This document shows, one piece after another, positions 13,660 to 51,507 of a stretch of 64,000 nt of DNA. The DNA is taken from the NCBI GenBank assembly GCA_021806045.1, contig JAJZDI010000002.1, positions 1-64,000 on the forward strand, written 5' to 3'. Origin of the DNA: Actinomycetes bacterium. Lineage in GTDB: Bacteria > Actinomycetota > Acidimicrobiia > Acidimicrobiales > RAAP-2. Made by a program: the position numbers and the translations under genes. The number at the start of each line of letters is the position of its first letter. Position 1 is the stretch's first letter. Below the pieces are notes generated by a model that saw only the letters and a list, made by a program, of their open reading frames with translations, was not told where the DNA came from and did not search any database.

Positions 13660-13665
13660 TACACT
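13660..13665 (+). promoter_or_regulatory. Probable leaderless -10 box (TACACT) before a 14-codon mini-ORF
   Basis: TACACT ends eight bases before the GTG at 13674, which opens a short frame rather than the glycosyltransferase itself. It makes the downstream gene independently transcribed from the flippase. Confidence 0.5.
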
Positions 13666-13673
13666 CGGCCGCC

Positions 13674-13718
13674 GTGGTTTCGTTGCTGGCGGGTCCTGTG
13701 ATCAGGGGGGGAGAGTGA
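13674..13718 (+). CDS. 14-codon leaderless upstream ORF
   Basis: A GTG placed eight bases after TACACT starts a frame of 14 codons (MVSLLAGPVIRGGE) whose TGA ends four bases before the GTG of the glycosyltransferase. The last codons (AGG GGG GGA GAG) are at the same time the purine-rich ribosome site of the downstream gene, so translation of the mini-ORF would cover and then release that site. Encoded peptide has no recognisable function; a regulatory or coupling role is inference. A similar arrangement precedes yajC. Confidence 0.4.
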   Translation: MVSLLAGPVIRGGE

Positions 13719-13722
13719 CAGC

Positions 13723-15018
13723 GTGCGCCAGGTGACAGACGACGGCATCGCCGGACCGTCGGCCCGACCGGGTCGCGGCGGGGCACGGTCGCTGTCGCGC
13801 CGGCTCGTCCCGCTGGGCAGTGGCCGGGGGGCCCCCGCCGATCTGGGGCCGGAACTGGTCGGGTTCGCCGGCCTGGAACTGGGAGAGATCGCCGAGCGCT
13901 CCGGGCTGAAGCGGATCGACGCGGTGGCGTGGCGGGACTACGACGACCCGGAGGCCGGCGGCTCGGAGCTGCATGCCCACCGGGTGATGTCGGCGTGGGC
14001 AGCCGCCGGGCTGGACGTGTCCCTCACCACGTCGTCGGTCCCCGGCGGGTCGGTGGTGGTCCGGCGTGAGGGCTACCGGGTGGTCCGGCGGTCCGGCCGG
14101 TACTCGGTGTTCCCCCGTTCGATGGCCTCGGGCGCGCTGGGCCGCATCGGCGGTGGCGATGGCCTGGTCGAGATCTGGAACGGCATGCCCTTCCTGTCGC
14201 CGCTGTGGGCCCGGTGCCCGAGCATCGTTTTCCTGCACCACGTCCACGCCGAGATGTGGCGAATGGTGCTGCCGCGTGGTCTGGCCGACATTGGGCACAC
14301 CATCGAGCACCGCCTGGCGCCGCCCGTTTACCGCAGCAGCCGCCTGGTCACGCTGTCCTCGTCGTCACGGGACGACATCGTCTCCCGGCTCGGCATCCCC
14401 GCCTCCCGGGTCTCGGTGGTGCCGCCTGGCGTCGAACCCCGGTTCTCGCCCGGTGGGGAGCGATCGGACGCGCCACTGGTGGTGGCCGTCGGCCGGCTGG
14501 TTCCCGTCAAGCAGTTCGGCGCGCTGGTCGATGCCCTGGTGGCGCTGCGGGAGCGGGTCCCCGCCCTCCGGGCGGTCATCGCCGGCGAGGGGTACGAGCG
14601 GGGGGCGTTGGAGGCGAAGATCGCGGCCGTCGGCGCCGGGTCGTGGCTGGAGCTTCCGGGGTACGTGTCCGACGACGAGCTGGTCGACCTGTACCGCCGG
14701 GCGTGGGTGGTGGCCTCGGCGTCACGCCGGGAGGGATGGGGGATGACGGTCACCGAGGCGGGTGCGTGCGGCACGCCGTCGGTCGTCACCCGCATCTCCG
14801 GCCACGAGGATGCCGTGGTCGACGGCACATCGGGCCTCCTGGTGGAGAACCCCTCGGGCCTGGCCGACGCACTCGAGGTGGTCCTCACCGACGAGGTGCT
14901 GCGGCGCCGGCTGGGCCAGGGGGCGCTCGAGCACGCCCGACGGTTCACCTGGGATGCGACCGCCCGGGGCACCCTCGCCGCGCTTGCTGTCGAGGCCCTC
15001 CACCGGAGTGGCCGCTGA
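13723..15018 (+). CDS. GT4-family glycosyltransferase
   Basis: Cytosolic retaining glycosyltransferase of 431 residues with a GT-B fold. The N-terminal half has AWRDYDDPEAGGSELHAHRV, the acceptor-domain Gly-rich loop; the C-terminal half carries VVAVGRLVPVKQFGALVDAL, a donor-domain Rossmann strand (VIAGEGYERGAL), and SRREGWGMTVTEAGACGTPSV, the E-x7-E region that holds the nucleotide-sugar. The first 60 residues are Arg/Gly-rich and unlike the family. GTG 13723 follows a strong GGGGGGGAGAG site eight bases upstream, which lies in a 14-codon upstream frame. With the flippase and GT-C enzymes upstream it probably extends the same glycan on the cytoplasmic side. Sugar not identifiable. Confidence 0.8.
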   Translation: MRQVTDDGIAGPSARPGRGGARSLSRRLVPLGSGRGAPADLGPELVGFAGLELGEIAERSGLKRIDAVAWRDYDDPEAGGSELHAHRVMSAWAAAGLDVSLTTSSVPGGSVVVRREGYRVVRRSGRYSVFPRSMASGALGRIGGGDGLVEIWNGMPFLSPLWARCPSIVFLHHVHAEMWRMVLPRGLADIGHTIEHRLAPPVYRSSRLVTLSSSSRDDIVSRLGIPASRVSVVPPGVEPRFSPGGERSDAPLVVAVGRLVPVKQFGALVDALVALRERVPALRAVIAGEGYERGALEAKIAAVGAGSWLELPGYVSDDELVDLYRRAWVVASASRREGWGMTVTEAGACGTPSVVTRISGHEDAVVDGTSGLLVENPSGLADALEVVLTDEVLRRRLGQGALEHARRFTWDATARGTLAALAVEALHRSGR

Positions 15019-42945: not shown

Positions 42946-44265
42946 ATGGCGGCTGCCATGGAACGAACGAAGGAGCTGGCCGCCGATCGTCCGACCAGCG
43001 ACGGGCTGAGTGCCAAGGAGGAAGCCAGCCCAGCTGCCGCTGTGTCGATCGGTGGAGGCACGGGCACTCCGGTCGAGGCCTTCGACTACGACCTGCCCGG
43101 GGCCGCCATCGCCCAGGAGCCGGTGGAGCCGCGTAGCGCGGCCCGGCTCCTGGTGGCACCACCGGTCGGCGCAGAGCGCGGGGCTCCGCCCGCCCATCGG
43201 CACATCACCGATCTTCCCGACCTGCTCCGACCGGGCGACCTGCTTGTGGTGAACGACACCCGGGTGCTGGCAGCCCGGCTGCAGCTTGCCAAGTCGACCG
43301 GCGGACGGGCCGAGGTGCTGCTGCTCGAGCCGGAGGACGGTAGCGGACGTGGCATCGGGCCCGACGAGCACGCCAGCGGACCCGCCGAGCACGACAGCGG
43401 GTCCGACCGGTGGGTGGCCCTGGTGCGCCCCGGTCGGCGATTGCCGCCGGGCACGGCCCTGTTCGAAGCGGGCGGCTCAGCGGGGGCTGCTCCCGTGGTG
43501 GTGGAGGGCTGGCCCGAGGGGACGGTCCCCGGAGGTGGGGACCCCGACGGGCGGCGCATCGTCCGGTTGGCCGACCCGTCGATCATCGAGCGGGCCGGCA
43601 TCGTGCCCCTGCCGCCTTACATCCATGCCGAACTGGACCGGCCGGAGCGCTACCAGACGGTGTTCGCCGCCGCCCGGCCGCCCGGGGAACGGTCGGCAGC
43701 GGCGCCGACCGCCGGGCTGCACCTCACGCCCGAGGTGCTGGAGGCCTGCCGCGCAGCCGGGGCCGCCGTGGCCACGGTGGACCTGGTCATCGGGCTCGAC
43801 ACCTTCCGGCCCCTCAGCGCGCCGACGGTCGAGGGCCACGTCATGCACTCCGAGCGCTACCGGGTGCCCGCCGCCACCTGGGAGGCGTGCCGGTCGGCCA
43901 CCCGGGTGGTGGCCGTCGGCACCACCGTGGTGCGTGCCCTGGAGTCGGCCGCGGCCACCGGCGAGCTCGAGGGGCGGACCGACCTGTTCATCCGCCCGGG
44001 TTTCCGGTTCCAGGTGGTCGACGCGCTGCTCACCAATTTCCACCTGCCCCGCAGCTCGCTGCTGGTGCTGGTGGAGGCGTTCTACGGTCCCGCCTGGCGG
44101 GACCGGTACGCGGAGGCCCTGGCCGAGGGCTACCGGTTCCTGTCCTTCGGGGATGCCATGTTCCTGGAGCGGGGCGCCGGGCACGGGGACCAGAGTGGCG
44201 CCGGGCCGTCCGGGGTCGGCGGCGAGCCATCCGGGCGCCCGGAGGATCCGGGTCCCGACCGGTGA
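42946..44265 (+). CDS. queA: tRNA preQ1(34) S-adenosylmethionine ribosyltransferase-isomerase
   Basis: Transfers and isomerises the ribosyl of SAM onto preQ1 in tRNA, giving epoxyqueuosine. Family parts: FDYDLPGAAIAQEPVEPRSAARLLV, LLVVNDTRVLAARL, PLPPYI, AAPTAGLHLT, DTFRPL and TDLFIRPGFRFQVVDALLTNFHLPRSSLLVLVEAFYG. At 439 residues it is longer than the usual 340-350: there is an N-terminal extension of about 45 residues, an acidic insert (GPDEHASGPAEHDSGSD) and a Gly-rich tail. Start uncertain: ATG 42946 or 42958. Its stop overlaps the tgt GTG. Confidence 0.92.
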   Translation: MAAAMERTKELAADRPTSDGLSAKEEASPAAAVSIGGGTGTPVEAFDYDLPGAAIAQEPVEPRSAARLLVAPPVGAERGAPPAHRHITDLPDLLRPGDLLVVNDTRVLAARLQLAKSTGGRAEVLLLEPEDGSGRGIGPDEHASGPAEHDSGSDRWVALVRPGRRLPPGTALFEAGGSAGAAPVVVEGWPEGTVPGGGDPDGRRIVRLADPSIIERAGIVPLPPYIHAELDRPERYQTVFAAARPPGERSAAAPTAGLHLTPEVLEACRAAGAAVATVDLVIGLDTFRPLSAPTVEGHVMHSERYRVPAATWEACRSATRVVAVGTTVVRALESAAATGELEGRTDLFIRPGFRFQVVDALLTNFHLPRSSLLVLVEAFYGPAWRDRYAEALAEGYRFLSFGDAMFLERGAGHGDQSGAGPSGVGGEPSGRPEDPGPDR

Positions 44266-45383
44266 CCACCTCGGCCACCCCCCTCACCGTGGCGGCCACC
44301 GACGGGGCGGCCCGGGCCGGCACGGTGACGACGGCCCGGGGCACGTTCGCCACGCCGTGCTTCATGCCGGTCGGCACCCGGGGAGCGGTCAAGGCACTGG
44401 ACGCCGCCGACCTGGAGGCGCTCGGCGCCCAGGTGGTCCTGTCCAACACCTACCACCTGATGCTCCGTCCCGGCGCCGAGGTGGTCGCCGCGCTGGGCGG
44501 GCTGGGTCGATTCAGCGGGTGGAGCGGCCACACCCTCACCGACTCGGGGGGGTTCCAGGTCCACTCTCTGTCGCCGGCGGTGGACGACGACGGGGTGTCC
44601 TTCACGTCCGTCTACGACGGCAGCCCGGTCCGCCTCACACCGGAGCGGGCCGTCGAGGTCCAGGGCCTGATCGGTGCCGACATCCAGATGGTGCTCGACG
44701 TGTGCGCCACCCTCCCGGCCCCGCCCGAGGTGCTGCGGCAGGCGGTCGAGCGCACGGCGGCGTGGGCGGCCCGAGCCCGGGACCACCACCGCAGGATCGA
44801 GGCCCGCCCGCCCCACCAGGCCATCTACGGCATCGTCCAGGGAGGGACCGATCCGGAGCTGCGGATGGAGAGCGCGTCCCGCACGGTCGAGCTGGCCTTC
44901 GACGGCTACGCCATCGGGGGACTGTCGGTGGGGGAGCCGAGGGAGGAGCTGCTGGCCGCGGTGGAGGCGACCGTCCCCATCCTGCCCGCCGACCGCCCCC
45001 GCTACCTGATGGGGGTGGGGGACCCGATCGGCCTGGTGGAGGCGGTGGCCCGGGGGGTCGACCTGTTCGACTGCGTGGCCCCCACCCGGGGCGCCCGCCA
45101 CGGCCAGGTGTGGACACGGTCAGGGCGGCTGTCGCTCCGGAACGCGGCCCACGCCCGGGACGACCGGCCGCTCGAGGAGGGGTGCACCTGTCCCACCTGC
45201 CACCGCTGGTCGCGGGGCTACCTGCGCCACCTGCTGCTGGTGGGGGAGCCAACGGCGTGGCGCCTCCTCTCGGTGCACAACCTGGCCTTCGTCCTGGGCC
45301 TGGTGGCCCGTGTGCGAAATGCCATCGGCGAGGGCCGGCTGGCCGACGTCCGCGCCGAGGTGGCAGCAGCCTGGGGCCGGTGA
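44262..45383 (+). CDS. tgt: tRNA-guanine(34) transglycosylase
   Basis: Exchanges G34 for preQ1 in tRNAs with GUN anticodons; 373 residues. Base-binding LTDSGGFQV, IVQGGTD and GGLSVGEP, nucleophile Asp in DLFDCVAPTRGARHG, and zinc ligands CTCPTC plus a downstream His (SVHN) are all present. The recognition motif, usually DEC in bacteria, is DVC here (MVLDVCATL). GTG start shared with queA. The two genes give the first queuosine steps; epoxyqueuosine reductase is not in the window. Confidence 0.95.
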   Translation: MTTSATPLTVAATDGAARAGTVTTARGTFATPCFMPVGTRGAVKALDAADLEALGAQVVLSNTYHLMLRPGAEVVAALGGLGRFSGWSGHTLTDSGGFQVHSLSPAVDDDGVSFTSVYDGSPVRLTPERAVEVQGLIGADIQMVLDVCATLPAPPEVLRQAVERTAAWAARARDHHRRIEARPPHQAIYGIVQGGTDPELRMESASRTVELAFDGYAIGGLSVGEPREELLAAVEATVPILPADRPRYLMGVGDPIGLVEAVARGVDLFDCVAPTRGARHGQVWTRSGRLSLRNAAHARDDRPLEEGCTCPTCHRWSRGYLRHLLLVGEPTAWRLLSVHNLAFVLGLVARVRNAIGEGRLADVRAEVAAAWGR

Positions 45384-45463: not shown

Positions 45464-45469
45464 TACAGT
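45464..45469 (+). promoter_or_regulatory. Probable leaderless -10 box (TACAGT) before the yajC mini-ORF
   Basis: TACAGT ends nine bases before the GTG at 45479, which opens a 10-codon frame rather than yajC itself. Second case of this design after the GT4 gene. Confidence 0.5.
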
Positions 45470-45478
45470 CGTCCCCCT

Positions 45479-45511
45479 GTGATCACCCTGACCCCCGCCG
45501 TGCCCTCGTGA
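45479..45511 (+). CDS. 10-codon leaderless upstream ORF coupled to yajC
   Basis: GTG-initiated frame MITLTPAVPS whose TGA (45509-45511) overlaps the yajC GTG as GTGA. The promoter spacing makes its GTG the first codon of the mRNA. There is no purine-rich ribosome site for yajC, so ribosomes finishing this peptide are the likely source of yajC initiation. Function as a coupling or sensing leader is inference. Confidence 0.45.
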   Translation: MITLTPAVPS

Positions 45512-46002
45512 CCCCGTTCATCGCTCTCGTGGCGCCGTTCGCAGCGACGTCGTCGTCGAAGACCTCGTCGTCGAGCAACTACTCCTTCCTCATCCTCATC
45601 GCCCTGTTCGCGGCCGCGTACTTCCTGTTCATGCGTCCCCGCAGCCAGGCGATGAAGCGCCAGCGCGAGGAGCAGCGACAGTTCTCAGTGGGGGACGAGG
45701 TCCTGACCGCCGGCGGCATCGTCGGGCGGGTCATCGACGACCAGGGCGACCGCATCACCCTGGAGACGAGCGTCGGTGCCTCGTTCACCGTGCTGCGCCA
45801 GTACATCGTGCGGCGGATCGAGGAGCCCGAGCCCGAGCCCGACATGGAGCCCGAGGGCGAGATGGAGACAGACGGGGGAGCGGATGAGGAGCCGGACAGC
45901 GCCGCCGGTGAGGTCCCCCCGGCGCCTGACGGAGACGGTGACGGCGGCGAGCACGGCGGGTCGTCGGGGGATGGCGACGATGGCGGATCGAAGCAGGCCT
46001 AG
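45508..46002 (+). CDS. yajC: Preprotein translocase accessory subunit YajC
   Basis: Small subunit of the SecDF-YajC complex, 164 residues. A single span (YSFLILIALFAAAYFLFMRP, followed by RSQAMKRQREEQ) and the cytoplasmic core FSVGDEVLTAGGIVGRVI are typical. The last 70 residues form a very acidic tail (EPEPEPDMEPEGEMETDGG) not present in most YajC. GTG 45508 overlaps the mini-ORF stop. secD starts about 25 bases after its end. Confidence 0.93.
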   Translation: MTPFIALVAPFAATSSSKTSSSSNYSFLILIALFAAAYFLFMRPRSQAMKRQREEQRQFSVGDEVLTAGGIVGRVIDDQGDRITLETSVGASFTVLRQYIVRRIEEPEPEPDMEPEGEMETDGGADEEPDSAAGEVPPAPDGDGDGGEHGGSSGDGDDGGSKQA

Positions 46003-46026
46003 GAACGCGGACATGGGGGAGTGCCG

Positions 46027-47544
46027 GTGAAGAAGGGCAAGCGCGGGCTGTGGATCAGCCTGATCGCCATGGTGGTCATCGCCGTGGTGTGGCTGGGGTC
46101 GACCCTGGCCGCAGGTTGGTCGCCCAAGCTCGGTCTCGATCTCGACGGCGGCCTGTCGGTGGTCTACAAGACGGTGAAGCCGGTCTCGGGCACCGACCTG
46201 TCGACGGCGGCCCAGATCCTGAACGACCGGGTGACGGGGAACGGTGCCAGCGGTGCGACGGTGGCCACCCAGGGCGGCAACGAGATCTCGGTGTCCATCC
46301 CCGGGGAGAAGAACCCCCAGAAGATCCTGAACGGCCTGGGCAACACCGCCCAGCTCTTCATCCGCCCCGCGCTGTGCTTCGCTCCCGCGCCCAAGGCAGC
46401 CAAGGGCACCACCCTCAAGCCGGCGCCGTACCCGGCGTGCTCGACCGGCACCCAGCTGACCTCGACGGCACTGGCCGTCAACACGTCGTCGGGATCGCCG
46501 ACGGGCAACATCCCCGCTGACAGCGCCCTGGCCCAGTACGCGTCGACGCCCTCGGGTGCCGACCAGAAGTCGGCCACCGTGCTGCTGCCGGGCTCGTCCG
46601 GCTCGGGCCTGACCGGGCGGGTCCTCCTCGGGCCCGCCCAGCTGTCGGGCACCGACGTGCACTCGGCGTCGGCCCAGGTCGACACCCTGGGCAATTGGGG
46701 CGTTCAGCTCAACCTGACCTCGGCCGGGGCGACCAAGTGGGACACGCTTGCCACGCAGCAGTTCCACGCCTACATCGCCTTCGACCTCGACGCCCAGATC
46801 ATCTCGATGCCCCTCACCCTTCCCAAGCAGGCCAGCTTCAGCTCGTTCGGGGGCACGGTGCTCATCAGCGGCGGGTTCACCCATGCCCAGGCCACCCAGC
46901 TGGCCAACCAGCTCACCTACGGCGCATTGCCCGTCGCCCTGCAGCGGATCACCGTCCAGACCGTGTCCCCCACCCTGGGCAAGGCGTCGCTGCAGGCCGG
47001 CATGATCGCCGGCATCGCCGGCCTCCTGGTCGTGATGCTCTACATGCTCCTCTACTACCGCCTGCTGGGAATGGTGGTGATCTCGGGCCTCGTCCTCACC
47101 GGCGCCCTCCTGTGGTCGATCATCGCCCTGCTCGGCCAGAGCAGCGGCACGACCCTCGACCTGGCCGGCATCATCGGCATCATCGTGTCGATCGGTATCA
47201 CCGTCGACTCCTACATCGTCTACTTCGAACGATTGAAAGACGAGACGAGGGCGGGCCGGACCGTGCGCACCAGCGTGGACCGGGGCTTCGCCAGCGCCTT
47301 CCGCACCGTGTTGGCCGCCGACGCGGTGTCGTTCCTCGGCGCGGCCATCCTCTACTTCATCTCCATCGGCCCGGTGCGGGGCTTCGCACTGTTCCTCGGG
47401 ATCTCGACGCTGCTCGACGTGATCGTCACCTACTTCTTCACCCGCCCGTTCGTGGTGCTGCTCGGGCGCCACGGCGGTGCCACCGAGGCACGGCGCCTGG
47501 GTGTGGCCCGGGGTCTGGGACTCGAGGCTGAGGGGGCCCGATGA
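46027..47544 (+). CDS. secD: Protein translocase subunit SecD
   Basis: RND-type membrane protein, about 505 residues, that uses the proton gradient to pull secreted proteins out of SecYEG. Residues 1-30 contain the first span, then LGLDLDGGLSVVY, a large periplasmic domain (about 45-300), and spans 2-6 with GIIGIIVSIGITVDSYIVYFERLKDE and FASAFRTVLAADAVSFLGAAILYF. GGGGGA at 46015-46020 is six bases before GTG 46027 and directly abuts GTG 46021, so I prefer 46027. Stop overlaps secF (ATGA). Confidence 0.94.
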   Translation: MKKGKRGLWISLIAMVVIAVVWLGSTLAAGWSPKLGLDLDGGLSVVYKTVKPVSGTDLSTAAQILNDRVTGNGASGATVATQGGNEISVSIPGEKNPQKILNGLGNTAQLFIRPALCFAPAPKAAKGTTLKPAPYPACSTGTQLTSTALAVNTSSGSPTGNIPADSALAQYASTPSGADQKSATVLLPGSSGSGLTGRVLLGPAQLSGTDVHSASAQVDTLGNWGVQLNLTSAGATKWDTLATQQFHAYIAFDLDAQIISMPLTLPKQASFSSFGGTVLISGGFTHAQATQLANQLTYGALPVALQRITVQTVSPTLGKASLQAGMIAGIAGLLVVMLYMLLYYRLLGMVVISGLVLTGALLWSIIALLGQSSGTTLDLAGIIGIIVSIGITVDSYIVYFERLKDETRAGRTVRTSVDRGFASAFRTVLAADAVSFLGAAILYFISIGPVRGFALFLGISTLLDVIVTYFFTRPFVVLLGRHGGATEARRLGVARGLGLEAEGAR

Positions 47545-48989
47545 GTGACGACACCACCCGCGACGACGAGCTCGACATGGAGCCCGAGGCGGAGGACGAG
47601 GTGCCGGAGGAGAACGAGGTGGAGGAGCCTGCGGTCGCCGACGAGGAGCCGGGGAGCGACGGGCCGACCGCCGGCGATCGGCGTCGGGACGAGCCGGGTG
47701 CATTCCGCCGCCTCTACCGGGGCCAGACGTCCTTCGACTTCATCGCCAATCGCCGGCGGTGGTTCGGGATCTCGGCCGTCATCATCGTGGCCGGGATCCT
47801 GTCCCTCGGCATCCGGGGCCTCAACCTGGGCATCGACTTCAAGGGCGGCCAGTCCTGGACGGTCACGACCCAGACGTTGACGGTGGCCCAGGCCACCTCC
47901 GCGGTGAAGTCGGCCGGCGTGAGCCAGCCGACGGTCGTCCAGCTCACCAATCAGTTGACCCACGTCCGCCAGATCGAGGTCCAGGCCGACCTCAACAGCC
48001 TGTCGCAGGCCAAGCGCACAGCGGTCGAGCAGCAGGTGAACGACGCGCTGGCCAAGGCGGCCGGCATCCCCGTCGCCGAAGCGGGGTCCAAGATCTCCTT
48101 CAGCGACGTCGGGCCGACGTGGGGCGGCCAGGTGACCTCAAAGGCGGTCGAGGCCCTCATCGTCTTCTTCATCGCCGTGGTGCTGTACATCTCCATCCGG
48201 TTCGAGTTCAAGATGGCCGTGGCCGCCCTGGTGGCGGTGATCCACGACATCCTGGTGACAGTGGGGATCTACTCGCTCACCGGGTTCCAGGTCACGCCGG
48301 ACACCGTCATCGCCGTCCTCACCGTGCTCGGCTACTCCCTCTACGACACCGTCGTCGTTTTCGACCGGATCGGCGAGAACACGAAGGGCCTGGGTGCGTC
48401 CGGGCGGATCACCTATTCGGACGTGGTCAACCTGTCGATGAACCAGACGCTGGCCCGCTCGATCAACACGTCCTTGGTGGCTGTCATCCCCGTGCTGTCC
48501 GTGCTGGTGATCGGCTCGTACGTCCTCGGGGCGACGACGCTCGAGAACTTCGGCCTGGCCCTGGTGATCGGCCTCACCAGCGGGGCTTACTCGTCGATCT
48601 TCATCGCCTCGCCGCTGCTGGCTCTGATGAAGGAGCGCGAGCCGCGCTACTCCACGATCCGCCAGCGCCTCGAGACGAGGGGTGACCGCCTGGGCATCCT
48701 CACCCCGGCCGCCGCCGCGGCCATGGCCGGCGGCCCCCGCTCGGCTTCACGGGCTGCCACCGCCTCCGCACGCGGCGCCATCCGGCCGGGTGCGGCACAG
48801 GGGGCGAAGGGAGCGAAGGGAGCGAAGAGCACACAGGGGGGAGGCGGCTCCACGGCCACGGCCGTGTCTGACGCCCCACAGCGCTCGGGCACCGGGTCCC
48901 GCCCGACCGCGGCGAACCGCCCCGCCCCCCGGCCCCGCAAGAACACGCCCAAGTCGAAGTCCAAGGGCGGCAAGGGCCGCAAGCGGTGA
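47541..48989 (+). CDS. secF: Protein translocase subunit SecF
   Basis: Partner of SecD, 482 residues, longer than the usual 300-400. Residues 1-50 are strongly acidic (EPEAEDEVPEENEVEEPAV). The core has FDFIANRRRWFGIS, LGIDFKGGQSW, a small periplasmic domain, and spans with VIAVLTVLGYSLYDTVVVFDRI and LARSINTSLVAVIPVLSVLV. The C-terminal 110 residues are an Ala/Gly/Arg-rich basic tail with GAKGAKGAK and ending KSKGGKGRKR. ATG shared with the secD stop. The 115 bases to rel contain a leaderless promoter. Confidence 0.94.
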   Translation: MSDDTTRDDELDMEPEAEDEVPEENEVEEPAVADEEPGSDGPTAGDRRRDEPGAFRRLYRGQTSFDFIANRRRWFGISAVIIVAGILSLGIRGLNLGIDFKGGQSWTVTTQTLTVAQATSAVKSAGVSQPTVVQLTNQLTHVRQIEVQADLNSLSQAKRTAVEQQVNDALAKAAGIPVAEAGSKISFSDVGPTWGGQVTSKAVEALIVFFIAVVLYISIRFEFKMAVAALVAVIHDILVTVGIYSLTGFQVTPDTVIAVLTVLGYSLYDTVVVFDRIGENTKGLGASGRITYSDVVNLSMNQTLARSINTSLVAVIPVLSVLVIGSYVLGATTLENFGLALVIGLTSGAYSSIFIASPLLALMKEREPRYSTIRQRLETRGDRLGILTPAAAAAMAGGPRSASRAATASARGAIRPGAAQGAKGAKGAKSTQGGGGSTATAVSDAPQRSGTGSRPTAANRPAPRPRKNTPKSKSKGGKGRKR

Positions 48990-49104: not shown

Positions 49105-51507
49105 ATGGCACTGGCCGCACCAGCCCCCGCCGGGGACCAGGGGCAGCAGGTGGCGCACCCCGAGGACGCGCTGCCAGCCGAGGAGCTGGCCGCCATGCTC
49201 GCGCCCGTGCTCGAGGCCTTCACGCGGCGCCATCCGGGGGAGGACGTCTCGCTCATCCAGCGGGCCGCGGCGGCCGCCGCCGACGCCCACGCCGGCCAGC
49301 GGCGCCGGTCGGGCGAGCCGTACGTGACCCACCCGGTGGCCGTGGCCCAGATCGTGGCCGAATTGGGGCTCGACATCCAGACGGTGGTGGCCGCGCTCCT
49401 GCACGACGCGGTGGAGGACACCGGCCTCACCTCGGAGTGGATCGAGCGGGAGTTCGGACCGTCGGTGGCCCTGATCGTCGACGGCGTCACCAAGATCGAC
49501 CGACTCCAATTCGATTCGAAGGAGGCGCAACAGGCCGCCACCGTCCGCAAGATGCTCGTGGCCATGGCCGCCGACTGGCGGGTGCTGATCATCAAGCTTG
49601 CCGACCGGCTCCACAACATGCGGACCCTCTCGGTGATGCCCGAGTGGAAGCAGCGCCGCACCGCCCAGGAGACGATGGACATCTATGCGCCCCTCGCCCA
49701 CCGGCTGGGGATCCAGGAAGTCCGCTGGCAGCTCGAGGACCTCTCCTTCGCCACCCTCCACCCCAAGCGGTACACGGAGATCGAGCAGATGGTGGCCTCC
49801 CGGGCCCCGTTGCGCGACGAGTACCTGGCCCGGGTGATGGTGGCCGTCCGGGAGCGCCTGGCCTCGTCGGGGATCGCCGCGGAGGTGACCGGGCGGCCGA
49901 AGCACCTGTGGAGCATCTACGAGAAGATGGTGGTGCGGGGCAAGGAGTTCGACGACCTCTACGACCTGGTCGGCATCCGTGTCATCGTCGACGCCGAGCG
50001 GGACTGCTGGGCCGCCCTCGGGTCGATCCACGCCATCTGGCCCCCCGTGCAGGGGCGCTTCAAGGACTACATCAACTCGCCCAAGTTCAACCTCTACCAG
50101 TCGCTGCACACGACGGTGATCGGTCTCGACGGCAAGCCCATCGAGGTGCAGGTCCGCACCCGTGAGATGCACCGCCGTGCCGAGTACGGGATCGCCGCCC
50201 ACTGGGAGTACAAGGAGAGCGGCACCCGCCGCGACGGCTCGCCGGCCCCGGGGCCGTCGAAGCGCCGCATGCGCCGCCTGCGGGGCGGCCCGCCCCGGGG
50301 TCGCGAGATCGAACAGGCGGAGAGCGAGCTGGGCGAGCTTGCCCGGGCCCGCGGTGGCCGGGGGACCTCCTCGACCACGGCCGAGATCGAGTGGATGCAG
50401 CGGATCGTCGACTTCCAGAACGAGACGACCGACCCCATCGAGTTCCTCGAGGCGCTCAAGCTGGACCTCGAGCACGACGAGGTCTACGTGTTCACCCCGA
50501 AGGGCAAGGTCATCGCCCTGCCGGCCAACTCCACCCCGGTCGACTTCGCCTACGCCATCCACACCGAGGTGGGGCACCGGTGCATCGGCGCCAAGGTGAA
50601 CGGCCGCCTCGTCCCCCTTGACACGCACCTCCACTCGGCCGAGACGGTGGAGATCTTCACGTCGAAGGCCCCGACGGCCGGTCCGTCACGGGACTGGCTC
50701 GACATGGTTGCGTCGACGCGGGCCCGTTCCAAGATCCGCCAGTGGTTCTCCCGGGAGCGCCGCGAGGACGCGCGCGAGGTGGGGAGGGACGAGCTCACCC
50801 GGGAGCTGCGCCGCGAGGGCCTCCCGGTCCAGAAGCTGGCCGCCGACGGCACCCTGGCCGAGCTGGCCATCACCATGCACCACGCCGACCTGGACGCGCT
50901 GCACACCGCCATCGGCGAGAGCCGGGTGTCCGCCCGTGCCGTCGTCCAGCGCCTGCTCCGCGAGCTGCGGGGCGGCACCTACGAGGACCAGCTGCCGGTC
51001 ACCGCCCGCACCCCCAGCCTCACGCCGCGGCCGGGCCGGGCGTCGTCTGTGGGCGTGTACGTCGAAGGGCTCGACGACCTGATGGTCCGGCTGTCGCGCT
51101 GCTGCACACCGGTGCCGGGCGACGAGATCGTCGGCTTCGTCACCCGGGGCCGGGGCGTGTCGGTGCACCGTGCCGACTGCTCCAACGCGGCCTCTCTGGC
51201 CAGCAGGTCCCGCGAGCGCCTGATCGAGGTGGAGTGGGACCACCGGGCGTCGGGCGTGTTCATCGCCACCATCGAGGTGGTGGCCATCGACCGTTCCCGG
51301 CTCCTCGCCGACGTCACCAAGGTTCTCTCCGAGCACCACCTGAACATCGTCGGCGCCAACACCCAGACCGACGCCGACCGCATCAGCCGCATGCGCTTCG
51401 ACGTCGAGCTAGCCGACCCGACCCACCTGGAGTCGGTGCTGTCATCCATCCGACTCCTCGATGCCGTCTACGACGCCTATCGGATCCTCCCCGGTCGGAA
51501 GGACTGA
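49105..51507 (+). CDS. relA: Bifunctional (p)ppGpp synthetase/hydrolase Rel
   Basis: Stringent-response enzyme of 800 residues. The hydrolase HD site is intact (LLHDAVEDT, His100-Asp101 and Glu104-Asp105); the synthetase has RPKHLWSIYEKM, GRFKDYINSPKFNLYQSLHTTV and the RFKD form found in bifunctional rather than synthetase-only enzymes. TGS begins VYVFTPKGKVIALP (about 462-525), and an ACT domain closes the protein (about 720-800). A 40-residue Arg/Gly-rich insert (about 370-410) precedes the TGS. Leaderless-type promoter, ATG 49105. hisS starts seven bases after its stop, so histidyl-tRNA charging is in the same transcript. Confidence 0.96.
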   Translation: MALAAPAPAGDQGQQVAHPEDALPAEELAAMLAPVLEAFTRRHPGEDVSLIQRAAAAAADAHAGQRRRSGEPYVTHPVAVAQIVAELGLDIQTVVAALLHDAVEDTGLTSEWIEREFGPSVALIVDGVTKIDRLQFDSKEAQQAATVRKMLVAMAADWRVLIIKLADRLHNMRTLSVMPEWKQRRTAQETMDIYAPLAHRLGIQEVRWQLEDLSFATLHPKRYTEIEQMVASRAPLRDEYLARVMVAVRERLASSGIAAEVTGRPKHLWSIYEKMVVRGKEFDDLYDLVGIRVIVDAERDCWAALGSIHAIWPPVQGRFKDYINSPKFNLYQSLHTTVIGLDGKPIEVQVRTREMHRRAEYGIAAHWEYKESGTRRDGSPAPGPSKRRMRRLRGGPPRGREIEQAESELGELARARGGRGTSSTTAEIEWMQRIVDFQNETTDPIEFLEALKLDLEHDEVYVFTPKGKVIALPANSTPVDFAYAIHTEVGHRCIGAKVNGRLVPLDTHLHSAETVEIFTSKAPTAGPSRDWLDMVASTRARSKIRQWFSRERREDAREVGRDELTRELRREGLPVQKLAADGTLAELAITMHHADLDALHTAIGESRVSARAVVQRLLRELRGGTYEDQLPVTARTPSLTPRPGRASSVGVYVEGLDDLMVRLSRCCTPVPGDEIVGFVTRGRGVSVHRADCSNAASLASRSRERLIEVEWDHRASGVFIATIEVVAIDRSRLLADVTKVLSEHHLNIVGANTQTDADRISRMRFDVELADPTHLESVLSSIRLLDAVYDAYRILPGRKD

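Follow-up and report, generated by a model that had tools for sequence, protein, structure and literature searches.

The yajC-secD-secF operon within the window, by which we mean the whole 64,000-nucleotide stretch of Acidimicrobiales DNA that was analysed, is headed by a 10-codon mini-ORF that probably serves as a landing pad at a leaderless 5' end, from which ribosomes reach yajC by termination and re-initiation. In the course of events that we infer from the sequence, the mRNA would begin at GTG 45479 or within about 3 nt of it, and a ribosome would bind the 5'-terminal GUG without a Shine-Dalgarno (SD) sequence, translate ten codons of an unstructured, C-rich stretch, terminate at the UGA inside a GUGA and immediately re-initiate on the overlapping yajC GUG. 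The features under selection would be the geometry between promoter and GTG, the open 5' end and a reading phase whose stop falls at the yajC start, with the peptide as a by-product. The purpose of the tiny ORFs that open many leaderless actinobacterial transcripts is debated, the candidates being a functional peptide, noise and ribosome delivery; the yajC case, in which phase and overlap are kept and most of the peptide is not, the 5' end is open in the clade of the window, and genes apparently switch state at yajC and transketolase, favours delivery.

Re-reading of the sequence confirmed the coordinates of the layout that an earlier, sequence-only reading had proposed. A -10-like box, TACAGT (45464..45469; this and all other features of the locus are on the + strand), taken as the yajC promoter, is separated by a 9-nt discriminator, CGTCCCCCT (45470..45478), from the mini-ORF (45479..45511), which runs from the GTG at 45479-45481 to a TGA at 45509-45511 (codons GTG ATC ACC CTG ACC CCC GCC GTG CCC TCG TGA) and encodes MITLTPAVPS. 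Its stop codon forms a GTGA overlap (45508..45511) with the yajC GTG at 45508-45510. The yajC gene (45508..46002) was identified by Pfam PF02699 (2.1e-17) and TIGR00739 (1.1e-15), and has an alternative in-frame start at GTG 45529. It is followed by secD (46021..47544; TIGR01129), for which the first start of the ORF was taken and GTG 46027 is also possible, and by secF (47541..48989; TIGR00966), which overlaps secD by ATGA. The upstream neighbour is tgt (44262..45383; TIGR00430), with a gap of 80 nt between its stop and the -10 box. Family cut-offs were reached by yajC, secD, secF and tgt, and a queA match fell just under. Consensus scans for sigma-70 promoters (-35 and -10) and for terminators found nothing near the yajC locus, and an Rfam scan of the region gave no match over threshold, the only sub-threshold match lying inside secD. 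Elsewhere in the window, a RelA/SpoT gene (49105-51507) has TACCGT 6 nt before its ATG and so is probably leaderless, and at 13660-13723 a TACACT box is followed after 8 nt by the GTG of a 14-codon mini-ORF, which contains a GGGGGGGAGAG tract and stops 4 nt short of the GTG with which a glycosyltransferase-like gene begins.

The conservation of this arrangement was examined in relatives. A yajC search of the family gave matches in 162 of 172 genomes (163 matches in all), from which 73 yajC loci of 72 genomes and 19 genera were read, together with 21 loci from outside the family but within the order; outside genus g10 all matches were read except that of G080, and g10 is represented by 7 of about 96. 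A TANNNT box, 9 nt and GTG were found in 39 of the 73 family loci, in 12 genera, and all 39 had the 9-nt spacing though 6-9 nt was allowed. The coupled layout that had been read from the GTGA in the window was present in 35 of these 39 loci, two others being fused in frame (g5) and two neither coupled nor fused (g12, g18); L028 and L033 are loci that have the promoter-GTG pair without coupling. The hand-over was a four-base NTGA overlap in 32 of the coupled loci, TGATG in two and TGA abutting ATG in one. Coupling was seen in 10 of the 19 genera read (g1 2/2, g3 2/2, g4 10/10, g5 3/5, g8 1/8, g13 1/1, g14 1/1, g16 13/13, g17 1/1, g21 1/2). In the second g21 locus (L006) GTA replaces the GTG, and since both g21 loci have GAGG before yajC, loss of the mini-ORF may be tolerated there. 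The promoter-GTG pair was missing from 34 of the 73 family loci; rescanning these at 3-5 and 10-16 nt gave two more possible coupled frames, L105 (10 nt) and L037 (13 nt). In the other families of the order coupling was found in 0/21 loci, six of which have an in-frame leaderless-type yajC start at 9-11 nt and one an uncoupled 7-codon frame. Two single cases were noted during this survey. Genome G095 has two yajC loci, L099 and L100, one lacking the mini-ORF but having a possible SD and the other coupled, which may reflect two operons or contamination. At L010 (G035) the promoter ends a tandem array of roughly 33-nt units which, judged by eye, resemble the promoter region itself.

The sequence-only reading had placed the TACAGT box at leaderless distance from the GTG, and the constant pair in relatives as well as a survey of the contig (283,930 nt; 244 genes called by script; TANNNT distances of 0 to 39 nt to in-frame start codons) support a leaderless-type start. 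TANNNT stood 6, 7, 8 and 9 nt before in-frame starts in 20, 11, 14 and 7 cases, compared with 2, 1, 1 and 1 in both other frames combined, and every remaining distance gave at most 6 cases; leaderless-type starts are therefore common on this contig. For GTG starts the counts at 6, 7, 8 and 9 nt were 10, 8, 2 and 1 (n=21), and since GTG starts favour 6-7 nt, the 9-nt spacing at yajC is at the long end of the range and rare for GTG. The last bases of the discriminator are C at -2 in 37 of the 39 loci and T at -1 in 32, so that they provide a pyrimidine-purine step that would fit a transcription start at the G of the GTG; a G is also present at -3 in many relatives' loci. The transcript may thus carry a leader of 0-3 nt, starting at that G or up to about 3 nt upstream. 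In Mycobacterium tuberculosis 85% of transcripts are described as starting with a purine, with TANNNT centred 7-12 bp upstream (PMC3898074); here the centre would lie about 12.5 bp upstream if the G is the start, just beyond that range.

The feature that most clearly ties the mini-ORF to yajC is its reading phase. The phase that leads to coupling was found in 13 of 17 genus-by-length combinations against an expectation of 1/3 (binomial p 3e-4), and in 9 of 13 when each distinct length was counted once (p 0.009), in tests that assume independent combinations, an assumption that holds only approximately. The alignment with relatives that the sequence-only reading had called for was thus borne out for phase (13/17) and overlap (35/39) and failed for length, which varied from 10 to 33 codons among the 35 coupled loci; loss of the frame in relatives, which that reading had named as the outcome that would count against it, was not observed. 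The exact position of the stop is less telling. The coupled yajC start was taken as the in-frame start codon closest to the hand-over, a choice that favours overlaps, and when mini-ORF interiors were shuffled with the phase fixed 75% still ended at the yajC start. Consequently, phase is the sole informative quantity, and it is independent of the yajC start that is chosen. The only coupled locus out of phase was L017, in which TGA immediately precedes the yajC ATG. A test of the fourth base of yajC (A in 34/35 coupled loci against 18/34, p 1.4e-5) was discarded as evidence, being partly circular because the coupled starts had been picked nearest the hand-over.

Folding predictions indicated that the 5' end of the mini-ORF mRNA is unusually open. 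The first 40 nt scored -0.7 kcal/mol in the window, with a mean of -3.3 kcal/mol over the 21 coupled loci that belong to g1, g3, g5, g16 and g21, the clade of the window, whereas 51 leaderless-type genes on the contig averaged -10.0 over the same length, with none weaker than -3.6 (p 5e-10 against the mini-ORFs, the loci not being independent). For the corresponding 40 nt at the start of yajC itself the mean over these 21 loci was -12.2 kcal/mol, and for 193 other contig genes it was -12.4, only five of these genes being as open at the start as the mini-ORF. The pad was less open in g4 (mean -8.5 kcal/mol), and the single coupled loci of g14 and g8 were not open (-10.4 and -14.8 kcal/mol). Openness of the 5' end of the RNA may be what matters.

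The claim that yajC lacks a ribosome site of its own was also upheld. SD pairing before the window's yajC was predicted at -1.7 kcal/mol, compared with -4.8 or stronger in all 34 pair-less loci, whose starts were chosen for the best SD pairing and whose SDs are therefore possible ones. Outside g4, pairing was weaker than in any of these 34 in 20 of 25 coupled loci. All ten g4 loci (L017, L019, L022, L089, L091-L096) carry a GAGGGGGTGG-like tract inside the mini-ORF, which would form a very strong SD for yajC (about -15 kcal/mol). Because of this strong SD, and because the RNA is less open there, coupling need not be the sole route to yajC in g4; the strong SD may be an alternative means of achieving the same.

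The peptide itself showed little sign of selection. For the mini-ORF pN/pS was 1.01 (13 g16 loci), 1.00 (7 g4 loci) and 0.76 (3 g5 loci, with few changes), similar to the 0.79-1.43 obtained for its unread frames, whereas an anchored control of 15 conserved yajC codons gave 0.32, 0.05 and 0.42 for g16, g4 and g5, although this control leans towards constraint as the codons were taken around a conserved motif. The one position that stands out is codon 3 (45485-45487): among the 21 coupled loci of the window's clade, 19 have Thr there and 18 the codon ACC, so that it is conserved at the nucleotide level also. Two prolines are present in the window peptide, and proline is missing from 6 of the 35 coupled peptides. 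The proline content in the 21 clade loci is higher in the unread +1 frame (0.336) than in the frame that is read (0.183), which suggests that the prolines are a consequence of C-rich, G-poor RNA. The peptide is probably a by-product, overall amino-acid constraint being absent by these measures.

These results bear directly on the proposal of the sequence-only reading that the peptide could sense ribosome stalling or secretion state; in such a scheme its prolines would stall the ribosome and so inform yajC-secDF of the state of the ribosome or of Sec. The ribosome tunnel holds about 30-40 residues, so a chain of 10-11 residues cannot exit it and is too short to sense export; the coupled peptides as a group have only 10-33 residues. 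The operon does encode Sec components, and actinobacteria are known to have arrest peptides encoded upstream of secDF and yidC (PMC7897499), and both the two prolines of the window peptide and the conserved Thr at codon 3 could be read in favour of a sensor. However, the search described in PMC7897499 looked for, and obtained, Sec-monitoring arrest peptides of 80-200 residues that carry an N-terminal export signal or a transmembrane segment and are conserved at the C-terminus, while MITLTPAVPS has 10 residues, peptide ends differ between genera and pN/pS is 0.76-1.01. Nor was there the conserved codon run of an amino-acid attenuator, only the single Thr codon, itself kept at the nucleotide level, and prolines that some relatives lack and the unread frame exceeds. 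For want of overall constraint we rejected the sensor peptide, which we consider very unlikely.

The base composition of the pad raises a different possibility, that the mini-ORF mainly keeps the early RNA covered by ribosomes against early Rho termination, with re-initiation only secondary. Rho prefers C-rich, G-poor RNA, and the g16 stretch has G 0.16 and C 0.51. Protection of this kind, however, does not need a phase that stops at the yajC start, and yet that phase is kept, so we give it only a slight chance of being the main role, and ribosome delivery remains the reading that we prefer.

Whether the mini-ORF GTG is a translation start at all can be judged from loci in which the same GTG is used differently. 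In two g5 genomes it is in frame with yajC, so that yajC itself is leaderless-type. In a SecD tree of 44 rows (L019 and L026 left out), g1, g3, g5, g16 and g21 formed one group (95/96) comprising 20 coupled loci, the two fused ones and the GTA locus, and the fused g5 pair was nested inside the coupled group, adjoining the coupled g5 loci (fork 95/79; surrounding forks 84-92). Given this position, the change in g5 was probably one from a coupled to a direct yajC start. A similar direct use was found for transketolase, where a TANNNT-ATG/GTG start is in frame with the enzyme in 25 of the 27 family genomes read (L112-L138; 27 of 29 genomes, with the partial L139 and the divergent L140 left out). 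Given these in-frame uses, the mini-ORF GTG looks to be used as a start. The contrary view, that the transcript begins slightly upstream or downstream and the ribosome starts yajC directly at 45508 or 45529, the overlap being incidental, could draw on the 9-nt spacing at the edge of what is seen for GTG, on the alternative GTG 45529 and on L081, in which a second GTG lies 2 nt downstream in the yajC frame. It would leave unexplained the recurrence of the promoter-GTG pair across 12 genera, the survival of phase through changes in length, and the in-frame use in g5 and at transketolase, and we regard it as unlikely. The outright mini-ORF-YajC fusion encoded by the g5 genomes could also hint that slippage or readthrough at the overlap makes such a fusion elsewhere, as a minor fusion product is described at the M. 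tuberculosis uPPE2-PPE2 AUGA overlap (PMC11260477). Re-initiation was nevertheless the main route there, and we consider fusion extremely improbable as the function of the overlap; termination followed by re-initiation remains the favoured reading for yajC.

Other genes on the contig have the same layout. Among leaderless-type mini-ORFs of 5-50 codons, 3 of 8 end on a called gene start, compared with 68 of 4753 arbitrary RTG frames and 2 of 62 at decoy spacing; with yajC excluded, 2 of 7 do so (p 0.004 compared with RTG frames and p 0.048 compared with decoys). When alternative gene starts were counted too, 3/8 compared with 7/62 for decoys and 113/4753 for RTG frames, and discrimination was poorer in a looser scan of the contig (6 genes at leaderless spacing against 1-4 at decoys; exact overlaps 4 against 0-3). 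One of the additional cases is transketolase (contig C17 105978-107993, - strand, outside the window; Pfam), which in the window's genus has an out-of-frame leaderless-type mini-ORF of 11 codons with an ATGA hand-over in both genomes (2/2). From the distribution over the 27 genomes we infer that the gene went from direct to coupled in this genus, the reverse of the change at yajC in g5. The other is a GT4-type glycosyltransferase (contig C17 278515-279669, - strand, outside the window; Pfam), for which 5 of the 7 loci read (own and L142-L147; strong matches in G065, G068 and G016 and a split match in G072 were left out) are coupled through mini-ORFs of 12-18 codons, each with a four-base overlap, and two are not; one of the five, in G070, has a spacing of 5 or 11 nt. 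Although the numbers are small, transketolase and the glycosyltransferase point to a general device. A wider reading, which we hold to be about evenly balanced between right and wrong, is that, across the family, a promoter, a start codon (GTG or ATG) and a short pad without structure together make up an initiation module at the leaderless 5' end, one that is exchangeable and largely blind to the peptide. Inserted in frame, it would extend the N-terminus of the protein; inserted out of frame, it would hand over through NTGA. Genes would switch between the two states, coupled mini-ORFs arising when a leaderless start slips frame and being retained since translation is rescued by the hand-over and the 5' end is no longer tied to the coding sequence. 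Annotation of the yajC and tkt starts is easily wrong in such genomes.

A full-text literature search for leaderless with yajC matched only on subcellular localization prediction, and one for Acidimicrobiia with leaderless returned general treatment only. The nearest known system is that of the mycobacterial leaderless small ORFs coupled by RTGA, which Shell et al. (2015; PMC4633059) reported at 23/220 sites against 32/1000 random ones; their account includes an example in which the architecture is kept and the peptide is not, and proposes ribosome delivery, an idea restated in a 2025 review (PMC12548453). Neither 'yajC' nor 'Rv2588' occurs in the main text of Shell et al. With 10 codons in a frame that differs from that of the next gene, the yajC mini-ORF falls within the 5-50 codons of that class, and GTGA 45508-45511 is an RTGA junction. 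It resembles the mycobacterial ORFs in having an RTG-first mRNA (here predicted), a small ORF, an RTGA junction and conservation of architecture over peptide, and differs in its constant 9-nt promoter spacing and unusually open 5' end. The mycobacterial set was built on transcription-start and ribosome data, whereas the yajC case lies in another actinobacterial family and is predicted from sequence. For M. tuberculosis uPPE2-PPE2, an AUGA overlap has been tested for termination-reinitiation (PMC11260477), and there likewise a gene without an SD is reached via an out-of-frame upstream ORF; the M. tuberculosis ORF comes with an SD and a B12 riboswitch, whereas the yajC mini-ORF appears leaderless and its region has no Rfam match over threshold. 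ApcA, ApdA, ApdP, SecM, MifM and VemP (PMC7897499) share with it a position upstream of Sec or YidC genes, but are far longer and, unlike the 10-residue frame, have a C-terminal arrest sequence as well as a signal for export or a membrane segment. We have good confidence in the reading of the yajC mini-ORF as a landing pad that delivers ribosomes to yajC, a new case of the known class of coupled leaderless small ORFs, and the comparative evidence for delivery of ribosomes over a function of the peptide is good.
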